Below, one piece after another: positions 21,825-50,131 of a stretch of DNA of 64,000 bases. Under the pieces are notes generated by a model. It saw only the letters and a list, made by a program, of their open reading frames with translations. It was not told where the DNA came from and did no database searches. How positions within the stretch are numbered: the first letter of the stretch is position 1; the number at the start of each line of letters is the position of its first letter. The position numbers were made by a program, and so were the translations under genes. Source of the stretch: Hymenobacter sp. DG25B (GTDB lineage Bacteria; Bacteroidota; Bacteroidia; Cytophagales; Hymenobacteraceae); assembly GCF_000801315.1 (NCBI RefSeq), contig NZ_CP010054.1, positions 248,001 to 312,000 on the forward strand, in the 5' to 3' direction.

Positions 21825-22115
21825 CTAATGGCGTCCCTTGCCGTGCCCTTTTCCATGCCCACGGCCGCCGCCATAGTAGGCACCGCGGGGGGCGTAGTAC
21901 ACGGGGCGGGCCGGCACCACCATCACGGGGCGGGGCTGATAATAGTAGTGCTTAGGGCCTTTCGCCTTTTTGGGGTGATGCACTTCGCGCACCACAATGA
22001 CGGGGGGCGGCGCCGGGCGGCCAATGTTGATGGTAACCTGGGCGCTGGCTGGCGTAGCGCTAAGCCCCAGAATAGCTGCTACCAAAAAGGCAGCGAGAGA
22101 GAAGATTTTCAGCAT
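21825..22115 (-). CDS. Small secreted basic, Pro/Gly/Tyr-rich protein
   Basis: A 96-residue protein with a clear signal peptide (MLKIFSLAAFLVAAILGLSA, cleaved near TPASAQ). The mature part is rich in Pro, His, Lys, Tyr and Gly: a PRPVMVVPARPVYYAPRGAY stretch and a GHGKGHGKGRH tail that could bind metal or polyanion. The ATG at 22115 is preferred over a TTG at 22121. It is exported; function unknown. Confidence 0.7.
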   Translation of the reverse strand: MLKIFSLAAFLVAAILGLSATPASAQVTINIGRPAPPPVIVVREVHHPKKAKGPKHYYYQPRPVMVVPARPVYYAPRGAYYGGGRGHGKGHGKGRH

Positions 22116-22396
22116 ACACAAACGGTGAAGGACAGGGAGGCAAAATGCACCTCAACAGTGCTCAAAAAACACGCCAAAACGCCGCCGTTTTAGCCAGTCC
22201 CCGCCCTAAAGTTCCCGGAACCCCCATAGCACCCCGGAAAACGGAATAGGTTAGCCCCGGCCCTAAAACCAGTTCGGGTCAGATACCCAACCAAGTTGGT
22301 ATCAGACCCGAGCTAATTCCCCTTAGGGGGCTATCTGGTAATTTCCTGTTCTACGCAGGCGCCGCGGCGCGGCGCATGGCCGCAGCCACCCTGGCC

Positions 22397-22492
22397 TTAG
22401 TAAACAAACCGGCCCAACCGACGACGGGCGGCAGCCGAAAGCGAAGTAGCAGGACGAACAGAAAGGGCGGAGGAGGCAACAAAACGTTTCAT
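22397..22492 (-). CDS. Micro-ORF A, 31-residue basic peptide (paralogue of micro-ORF B)
   Basis: An ATG-to-TAA frame encodes 31 residues starting MKRFVASSALSV and ending SLSAAARRRLGRFVY. It is shorter than usual annotation limits. An equally long frame at 22551-22646 encodes a peptide whose last 15 residues are identical. Codon by codon, 11 of the differences between the two are synonymous, and all 7 differences in the shared C-terminus are. That points to selection on this protein frame. The product is small and cationic with one hydrophobic end; function is unknown. Confidence 0.65.
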   Translation of the reverse strand: MKRFVASSALSVRPATSLSAAARRRLGRFVY

Positions 22493-22550
22493 GACTCAAA
22501 AAGGAAAAATGTGAATTGACTTGATTTAGAAAAGACAGGCGCTGAGCCGC

Positions 22551-22646
22551 TTAGTAAACAAAGCGTCCCAAACGGCGGCGGGCAGCAGCCGACAGCGAAG
22601 CAGAAGGTTTCAGGGAACGAGCGGAGGAGGAAGTGAAGCGTGACAT
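22551..22646 (-). CDS. Micro-ORF B, 31-residue basic peptide (paralogue of micro-ORF A)
   Basis: This frame encodes 31 residues starting MSRFTSSSARSLKPSA and ending in the same SLSAAARRRLGRFVY as micro-ORF A, 58 bases away on the same strand. The N-terminal halves differ at eight positions but keep the pattern of Arg/Lys, Phe and a Ser run. Both use TAC TAA as the last codons. No promoter or strong ribosome-binding site is clear, which is common in Bacteroidota. Another frame across the same bases is open but does not show codon-position conservation. Confidence 0.65.
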   Translation of the reverse strand: MSRFTSSSARSLKPSASLSAAARRRLGRFVY

Positions 22647-23129
22647 GGCTGAAAAGAGAAAGAGAGTGGATGAATGATTGCTGGTTTGGATCAGGTCCGT
22701 ACTGTGCGTTTCTGAACATCACTGCGGCGAACCTGTATAGTAGTACCCAAGCCCCGTGCCAATGTTATAAGTTATTGATTATCACATATTTATAACGAAT
22801 ATCAGCTACACCCACTCCGTAAAAAACGTCCGTAATCAGGCAGACTGTCCGTTTTCGTACAGTCCTGACCCGGGCAATGCAGAAATCCGGCTTTTACTGG
22901 TGATTTTTTTTTCGAGGCTGGCCGCGGCCGGGCGGCCGCGAGGGAGCGTTGGCAGTGAAAAAGCCGCTTACAGCGGCTTTAATAGAATCTTTTCAATAAT
23001 CATTAAAATATATATAAGCCCACAGGCAACCGTTCAGCTGAGCTGCGAATCTTACTGGCAACCGGGAAGGGCTGCCCGCTACGCCGTGGGCCGCAGCTTC
23101 CTTATCCAACCTCCTTACCCTACCACGCT
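22647..23129. other. Intergenic region upstream of secreted-protein gene
   Basis: About 480 bases without a credible gene. It contains a terminator-like hairpin, AAAGCCGC/GCGGCTTT at 22960-22980, and a GACTGT/ACAGTC inverted repeat near 22843. The rest holds AT-rich tracts likely to carry promoters for the micro-ORFs and the downstream secreted protein. No exact TAnnTTTG box was seen. Confidence 0.4.
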
Positions 23130-23534
23130 ATGAAAACACTCCTCCAAAAAGCCTCCCGCCTGGTGCTGGTGGCCGCCTTCGCTGGTCTTGGCTTTACGCA
23201 GCCGGCTCAGGCCCAAACTGCCAACCAGGCGCCGGCCGTCAGTGTGCTGAAAGTAAACGACTTCACTTATATAGTGCGGGCCAGCAACCCCCAGCGGCAA
23301 CGCAGCCGGCTGCAAGTGGTTCGGCTGAGCGACAATGCCGTTGTCTACAGCCAATCTACCTTTAAGCCCACCTTCGGCGGCCGGCTGAACGTGCAGCAGC
23401 TGACGGATGGGGAATATGCCGTGGTGGTGAAAGTAGGCCAGGGCGTAACCCGCTACTCGCTGAACCTGCAAACCGAAACGGAGCGCACAGTACACCTGGA
23501 GAATGTGTCGCTAGCGGCTGTGAACACCAAATAG
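23130..23534 (+). CDS. Small secreted beta-rich protein (paralogue of the gene at 25324)
   Basis: A 134-residue exported protein with a signal peptide cleaved near AQAQ. The mature part has alternating beta-strand pattern (FTYIVRASNP, LQVVRLSDNAVVY, GGRLNVQQLTDGEYAVVVKVG, TRYSLNLQT). This resembles the short Ig-like modules seen in T9SS proteins, but it lacks a sorting-signal ending. A paralogue at 25324-25725 shares signal peptide, core and even the bases before the ATG. The two flank a metalloprotease gene. Function unknown. Confidence 0.7.
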   Translation: MKTLLQKASRLVLVAAFAGLGFTQPAQAQTANQAPAVSVLKVNDFTYIVRASNPQRQRSRLQVVRLSDNAVVYSQSTFKPTFGGRLNVQQLTDGEYAVVVKVGQGVTRYSLNLQTETERTVHLENVSLAAVNTK

Positions 23535-24815: not shown

Positions 24816-25323
24816 AGCGGATAGGCGTAGCAGGTTAGGTAAGCAGAAATAGAAATAAGACAGCCAACAAGCCTCCCGCAGCAGCCAGCGCAGGCTGGTC
24901 TGAGGGGAAAGGCACACCACGAACCGGGAACGGAGAGAGAAAGAAGCTCAACAGAGCAGGCGCGAAACGGCGGATAGCAACAGCACAATACTTCCCAGGC
25001 CTTAGCCGGCCCTAACCAGCTAAGTATTAATCATAAATATTATATTCAATATACAATAATTAAGAGAGTTTTTCACTTATAACTGGTGTTTAACATGATA
25101 CCCCAGCCGGTTGCTTAGCGGCCTGCTGAAAGGGCATCTACCGGGGTTGGCGGGCGCCTTATTGCATTGTTCCTTTATTGATTCATCTTTCTTATAATCA
25201 GAGAATTATATACAAATAATATGCAACCGCGTGTGGAAAACGGTGTCTATGATACATCATACAAATACTGCTTCGCCGTTGGGCGGGCAGCCGTTTTTTC
25301 CAACCTTTTTACCACACCACGCT
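24816..25323. other. Intergenic region between metalloprotease and secreted-protein genes
   Basis: About 500 bases with no credible gene. The centre (about 25020-25070 and 25170-25225) is AT-rich and probably carries divergent promoters. I saw no exact promoter consensus, repeat or RNA structure. Confidence 0.4.
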
Positions 25324-25725
25324 ATGAAAACGCTCCTGAAACAAGCTCCCCGCCTCCTTCTGGTGGCCGCCTGCGCCAGTCTGGGTTTCGCCCAGGCCGC
25401 CCAGGCCCAGTCCTCTGCCCGTCCGCAGCCCGTTTGCGTGGATAAGGTGGGCGACTTTACCTACTTGGTGCGCGTGAGCAACCCGCGCTTTCAAAAGGGC
25501 GAGCTGCAAGTGGTGCGCCTCGCCGACAACGCCGTGCTCTACGATAAGATCACCAACAAACACGTCTTCGGGAGCAAGCTGAACGTGAAGGAGCTACCCG
25601 ATGGCGAATATGCCTTTGTGGTGAAAGTGGGCAAAGACGTGACCCGCTATACCCTGGATATCCACACCACGGTGGAGCGCGCCGCCCGCCTGGGCTCCGT
25701 ATCGATGACAGCCATGGCCGACTAG
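25324..25725 (+). CDS. Small secreted beta-rich protein (paralogue of the gene at 23130)
   Basis: A 133-residue exported protein with signal peptide MKTLLKQAPRLLLVAACASL cleaved near AQAQ. It aligns along its whole length with the 23130-23534 product: DFTYLVRVSNP, LQVVRLADNAVLYD, SKLNVKELPDGEYAFVVKVG and VTRYTLDIHT. The ATG at 25324 matches the paralogue start; the longer open frame from 25231 has no counterpart. Function unknown; the flanked protease may or may not be related. Confidence 0.7.
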   Translation: MKTLLKQAPRLLLVAACASLGFAQAAQAQSSARPQPVCVDKVGDFTYLVRVSNPRFQKGELQVVRLADNAVLYDKITNKHVFGSKLNVKELPDGEYAFVVKVGKDVTRYTLDIHTTVERAARLGSVSMTAMAD

Positions 25726-30093: not shown

Positions 30094-30135
30094 AGGGGTG
30101 CCTGCCCCGGGAAGGGTTCAGAGCACCCCTTTGCC
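30094..30135. other. Strong hairpin upstream of the MFS gene
   Basis: AAAGGGGTGC (30095-30104) pairs with GCACCCCTTT (30123-30132) around a GC-rich loop. It lies about 85 bases upstream of the MFS start and about 80 before the divergent VOC gene. It could be an attenuator or a dispersed repeat; no known riboswitch core was recognised. Confidence 0.35.
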
Positions 30136-30212
30136 AGGTCTGTGGGTTTCCTACTGAAGGCCATAAAAACCCGGTATCTTACGGGCTTACGCTCCACTAC
30201 TTCCCTTTTTCT

Positions 30213-49997: not shown

Positions 49998-50131
49998 GCG
50001 TCTGGATTGCAGACAATATGACCGAATGCGCGCTCCTACTACCCTTTTTCTGCGCCATTATGGCTTATTAAGTGTGCGCTACAGATTGGTACGGGGTTTG
50101 AATAACGGTTGCTAACCTTACAGATGTAACT

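Follow-up and report, generated by a model that had tools for sequence, protein, structure and literature searches.

The sigma54 promoter consensus is TGGCACN5-7TTGCT, and ABC systems of the FtsX type have been described as sigma54-controlled in Bacteroidia and in further classes, with COG0577 being enriched in Bacteroidia among others (PMC12316311). AtoC-like activators have been linked in general to the cell exterior (PMC3162934). Another described system is that of the extended signal peptides of autotransporters, which possess an unusually long n-region (PMC2805444). The locus analyzed here resembles the sigma54-controlled FtsX/MacB systems in that sigma54-like promoters precede MacAB-like genes and an NtrC-type regulator is encoded in the cluster; it differs by small peptide genes and by dyads that flank the promoter upstream and downstream, neither of which is described in the text of that study available to us (PMC12316311). 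The likeness to the autotransporters, drawn from the available description of their signal peptides, lies in the long n-region of a parent protein, whereas here the n-region alone is the whole gene product (PMC2805444). The literature searched yielded no account of the peptides or of the promoter layout.

The window (the whole stretch of DNA analyzed, 64,000 nucleotides) contains two tandem frames, termed ORF1 and ORF2. The pair is real and under selection; its distribution is narrow, and its origin can be traced. Judged from the sequences, it probably represents a pair of genes for small cationic peptides that derive from a truncated extended signal peptide, are maintained by selection and are induced together with an efflux regulon. 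The window genome is designated G000, and G102 is Hymenobacter sp. BT730. The following features were assigned:

22846-22861, minus strand: dyad A, TGTACGAAAACGGACA, 99 nt 5' of the core promoter
22827-22842, minus strand: dyad B, TGCCTGATTACGGACG, 80 nt 5' of the core promoter
22745-22762, minus strand: core sigma54-like promoter, TTGGCACGGGGCTTGGGT, with -24 TGGCAC and -12 TTGG instead of TTGC
22703-22718, minus strand: dyad C, TGTTCAGAAACGCACA, at +44 from the core start
22692-22735, minus strand: predicted 5'UTR stem-loop, starting near the putative transcription start
22647-22671, minus strand: final part of the 5'UTR, rich in pyrimidines and invariant in three species (25 of 25 positions between G000 and G102)
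22551-22646, minus strand: ORF1, 31 aa, MSRFTSSSARSLKPSASLSAAARRRLGRFVY
22493-22550, minus strand: spacer of 58 nt, G000-G102 identity 0.69, below that of the frames (0.91 for ORF1, 0.88 for ORF2)
22397-22492, minus strand: ORF2, 31 aa, MKRFVASSALSVRPATSLSAAARRRLGRFVY
22255-22345, minus strand: conserved stem-forming region after ORF2, 80 of 90 positions identical between G000 and G102, putatively linked to the ORFs
21825-22115, minus strand: next gene, encoding a putative secreted protein of 96 aa from the ATG at 22115 (98 aa with a TTG start)

ORF1 and ORF2 form a 112-nt direct repeat with 75% identity and a start-to-start distance of 154 nt. The preliminary description had reported two minus-strand frames of 96 bases, 58 bases apart, and these coordinates proved exact. 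Its codon counts were reproduced as well: 19 codons differ, 11 silently and 8 non-silently, and the seven differences that fall within the shared final 15 codons are all silent when read from the sequences. The differences are distributed over codon positions 1, 2 and 3 as 7, 4 and 13 (NG86 dN of 0.20, dS of 0.69). When these 24 base changes were placed randomly on ORF1, eight or fewer amino-acid changes were obtained in 0.245% of 20,000 trials (mean 13.5). Since so few amino-acid changes arose this rarely, the codon pattern exceeds chance. An overlapping 77-aa frame (22489-22722) was rejected; it is disrupted in G102.

The peptides had been called basic with a hydrophobic end. Each indeed carries a net charge of +7, but hydrophobicity is limited to the final FVY: the most hydrophobic 12-mer has a mean Kyte-Doolittle value of 0.51 in ORF1 and 0.99 in ORF2, as compared to 1.90 in the parent signal peptide. 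Three consecutive Arg codons lie close to the end of both frames. A low-confidence structure model placed helices at residues 3-11 and 15-30 (pLDDT 62, pTM 0.20). Type I toxin peptides contain a single hydrophobic membrane-spanning stretch; ORF1 and ORF2 contain none, and this candidate was rejected.

In a genus set of 120 genomes including G000, full-length matches were observed in G000, G076 and G102, with a tandem pair in each. Thus, homologous frames are neither missing nor broken by frameshifts or stops: intact pairs occur in 2 of the 119 other genomes, and both frames keep the same length and the same stop in the three species, with no indels. G000 and G076 are near-identical here (no change in ORF1, one silent change in ORF2). 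Between G000 and G102, the first 13 codons of ORF1 are identical and neither frame contains gaps. ORF1 differs at 9 bases and 3 amino acids, and this few amino-acid changes or fewer were obtained in 4.65% of random placements (6 codons differ, 3 of them silently; dN 0.048, dS 0.25), so that the selection test for ORF1 alone is weak. ORF2 differs by 12 base changes and 1 amino-acid change, and none of 20,000 random placements was as low (10 codons differ, 9 of them silently; dN 0.047, dS 0.43). Flanking genes showed dS values of about 0.07 to 0.94, with antisense frames in the list ignored. The G000-G102 identity was 0.79 for dyads A and B, 0.55 for the AT-rich stretch that precedes the core, 0.83 for the core promoter and 0.71 for the early leader. 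Purifying selection on the protein, as proposed earlier from the repeat, is supported by the codon tests on the orthologues; conservation, however, extends also to the promoter dyads and to the 25 nt of leader before ORF1.

The peptide family is narrow, with three species found and no credible member in the family and order samples or in the GTDB scan. A protein search with the single peptides yielded a match with E of at most 1 in 73 of the 120 genus genomes, the best beyond G000, G076 and G102 having 0.036, and 27 weak genus matches that were inspected (L006-L032) were judged to be chance. A 200-genome family sample returned these three genomes and one weak match (0.036). In a 341-genome order sample at E of at most 0.05, 34 genomes matched, of which all but G000 gave weak matches (33 genomes, best 0.0027); this is about twice the 17 expected. 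G076 and G102 were absent from the order-sample listing, and the 33 weak matches were taken as listed. The GTDB pattern scan gave 37 stretches, two of them in BT730 and 35 without a comparable small frame. Four stretches matched in viral contigs, all judged to be chance, and plasmids and phages gave no match to the peptides.

The source of the frames appears to be a gene for a secreted protein with a long signal peptide, located about 8 kb from the tandem frames and encoding 153 aa in G076 and 157 aa in G102:

L125:1828-2289 and L124:1616-2089, plus strand: parent secreted-protein genes, present in G076 and G102

The parent protein starts with MKRFAPALFSSRA.SLASSVRRHLGRFTF, followed by a hydrophobic core and AQAQ. 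The alignment of ORF2 with the two parent n-regions scored 64 and 60, and none of 5,000 shuffles each was as high. For ORF1 of G000, the scores were 47 and 48 (1 and 3 of 5,000 shuffles), and for ORF1 of G102 they were 45 and 46 (10 and 6 of 5,000 shuffles). The DNA upstream of ORF1 likewise matches that preceding the parent gene, at 78% over 82 bp in G102 and at 74% over 92 bp in G076. The peptides terminate at FVY, whereas the parent continues with FTF into its hydrophobic core. In G000, the alignment is interrupted at the syntenic position (about 30103-30165 of the window), and no such gene is seen there. The genus search found three distant members of the parent family in G000, the best being 38% identical with a shorter signal peptide. 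The window itself encodes two secreted proteins (23130-23534 and 25321-25725, both plus strand), each distantly related to the parent and with a shorter signal peptide.

The peptides share the n-region MKRF...RR.LGRF, the promoter array and the leader with a Hymenobacter family of secreted hypothetical proteins (L125:1828-2289, P0003, P0004). They differ from this family in having neither a hydrophobic core nor a cleavage region of the AQAQ type nor a mature domain, and because the core and the mature domain are missing, they are placed outside it. A Pfam domain was found in none of 12 parent homologues, and a Pfam profile search up to E of 1 gave no family for either peptide. The initial statement that no described family is known therefore agrees with Pfam, but it overlooked the relationship to the n-region of the secreted family's signal peptide.

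Transcription of ORF1 would start at about 22735, a position that follows from spacing only. The leader stem-loop had z-scores of -2.34 in G000, -2.45 in G076 and -0.8 in G102; over 19 promoters, the mean was -2.06 (range +0.42 to -5.67). The ORF region was less structured than its shuffles (z of +2.68), and the fold of 22230-22400 gave a z of -2.90. Matches to the conserved region at 22255-22345 were confined to G000, G076 and G102, plus a 28-nt match in G091. Rfam yielded no match in the ORF region at gathering thresholds, and a Weinberg-type riboswitch, likewise without an Rfam match at gathering score, was rejected. The product of the next gene ends in HGKGHGKGHGKGRH; relatives of this gene occur in 26 of the 120 genus genomes, with the tandem frames upstream in 3 of the 26.

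Several explanations besides selected peptide genes were weighed. Short frames are common and many mechanical ORFs overlap the region, as a chance repeat with open frames would have it, but this reading is hardly credible, being contradicted already by the orthologous pairs as well as by the codon test on the repeat and that on ORF2. Decaying remnants, i.e., two stop-cut copies of the 5' end of the secreted gene without peptide function, whose promoter and leader persist through modest divergence, are a less easily dismissed, though unlikely, explanation. The stop lies at the border of n-region and hydrophobic core, as expected of a nonsense mutation, the parent gene itself is gone from its syntenic place in G000, and ORF1 gave only the 4.65% value. 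However, remnants would not be expected to retain length, stop and reading frame in both copies in three species, nor to differ silently in nine of ten codons of ORF2, and divergence is higher in the spacer and the flanks than in the frames.

The identity of the 25 nt before ORF1 and of its first 13 codons, together with a stem-loop and dyad C that are common to the secreted genes, might alternatively indicate that RNA or DNA is the functional unit, either as a promoter titrating the regulator or as a sigma54-induced small RNA with a 5' part like the leaders of the secreted genes, the frames being passengers. The poor folding of the ORF region, the bias of changes to third codon positions and the Rfam result argue against this, and it is considered improbable. 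Leader peptides controlling the downstream gene of 96-98 aa by attenuation or translational coupling would fit the common strand, the stem-forming region in between and the Arg triplets, but with the pair preceding so few relatives of that gene, and since two near-identical leaders would be odd, such a role is very improbable. Selected peptide genes thus remain the preferred reading.

The ORF1 promoter carries three 16-bp dyads at offsets of -99, -80 and +44. Its -24 element is present as TTGGCAC at 22756-22762 (minus strand) and is kept in three species, while the -12 position reads TTGG in ORF1 and in 14 pattern-selected loci; because this is off the consensus, the promoter is named sigma54-like only. 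The genome encodes rpoN (PF04552, 191.7 bits). The dyads at -99 and -80 represent, as sequence alone, putative activator sites upstream at constant distance; they are found in all three species, and the dyad at +44 in G000 and G102, where tested. Reading dyad C as a pure RNA element was not adopted as the main interpretation, since A, B and C share one layout. Read by eye, the sequence would also allow a sigma70 promoter for ORF1 (TTGGCA, 17 nt, TATACA), but most of the other promoters lack TATACA.

Of 30 fetched loci of the secreted family, L153 was dropped as no start was found. The core pattern TTGGCACG-N4-TTGG was present at most 320 nt from the start in 14 of the remaining 29, and several of the other 15 carry core variants, e.g., TTGGCACGGGAATAGAATT. 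In these 14 promoters, the start of a TGYCCG-N4-CGGACA-type dyad was located at -80 in 12 and at -79 and -81 in two; another dyad was positioned at +44 in all but one, where it lay at +43. The core matrix scored 24.2 bits at the ORF1 promoter, the next site in the window reaching 14.35. A composite matrix, trained on 12 promoters of other species with the two parent promoters left out, scored 59.2 at 22762 (minus strand), as compared to -0.1 for the next site in the window and a maximum of 12.4 in 20 shuffled windows; no second strong promoter site was found within the 64,000 nt. As the training promoters had been chosen by a core pattern resembling that of ORF1, the core score is partly built in, and the dyads had been spotted by eye on the scored loci ahead of scoring.

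Genome-wide, either pattern alone was at background (dyad: 83 sites versus 78 with reversed-pattern controls; core: 7 versus 6), and a strict dyad pattern missed the MacAB sites. Among the 7 core-pattern sites, only the promoters of ORF1, of an HlyD adaptor gene and of a MacB-type ATPase gene scored above 15 with the composite matrix. In a scan of 188 loci, 30 rows exceeded 15, comprising 25 of the secreted family (one promoter being counted twice), 3 tandem frames and 2 transporter genes; as the majority of the loci had been collected for the secreted family, the scan gives no measure of specificity.

The two transporter genes belong to a MacAB-like cluster of the same genome:

L187:1-2050 and L188:8063-15000: MacAB-like cluster, near the two ends of contig C1, adjacency of the ends being assumed

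According to Pfam, the cluster encodes an HlyD-type adaptor, an ABC ATPase, two MacB_PCD/FtsX permeases, a kinase (HATPase_c, PAS) and an NtrC-type response regulator that carries domains for sigma54 activation and for DNA binding of the Fis type. The three-dyad array precedes the HlyD-like and the MacB-type ATPase genes, with composite scores of 42.3 and 56.2, respectively, although neither was used in training, and +44 was the best position of the downstream dyad in both. We infer that the NtrC-type regulator of this cluster may bind the dyads, because of its proximity and because the array precedes two genes of its own cluster.

With selected peptide genes as the preferred reading, the 5' end of a secreted-protein gene, comprising promoter, leader and signal-peptide n-region, would have been the source of ORF1 and ORF2; it would have lost the hydrophobic core and the mature part and then been duplicated in tandem. 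A signal perceived by the sensor kinase would result in phosphorylated NtrC-type regulator on the 16-bp dyads, the regulator most likely being the one encoded with the MacAB-like efflux cluster. A sigma54-type start would then give rise to the leader and to translation of two peptides without a membrane core, made together with the efflux system once its kinase is triggered. Being short, cationic and possibly helical, the peptides would probably act at the inner membrane face and would be kept by selection as proteins. It is rather doubtful that the stand-alone n-region acts in trans, i.e., that it tunes or competes with the machinery handling the long signal peptides of the regulon, or is exported by this machinery, with the duplication having doubled the dose. 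If the proposed origin is true, new small-protein genes can arise by keeping promoter, leader and n-region and discarding the rest. The promoter layout, in which three dyads surround a sigma54-like core at fixed distances, is testable, and it unites the efflux cluster, the secreted family and the two micro-proteins in one predicted regulon of a little-studied genus.

The second-best core match in the window, TTGGTACGGGGTTTGAAT at 50086 (plus strand; 14.35 bits), has no dyads at the fixed offsets and lies 47 nt before a 127-aa frame. Upstream of the secreted-family genes at L144, L145, L148, L149 and L156, a variant promoter, TTGGCACG..AATAGAATT, was observed, with a downstream element near GCTCAAAACCGGACACGAGC. 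Beside the genes of the MacAB-like cluster, a putative TolC-like frame was named by eye, as was a putative sigma-factor-like frame between the ATPase and permease genes.
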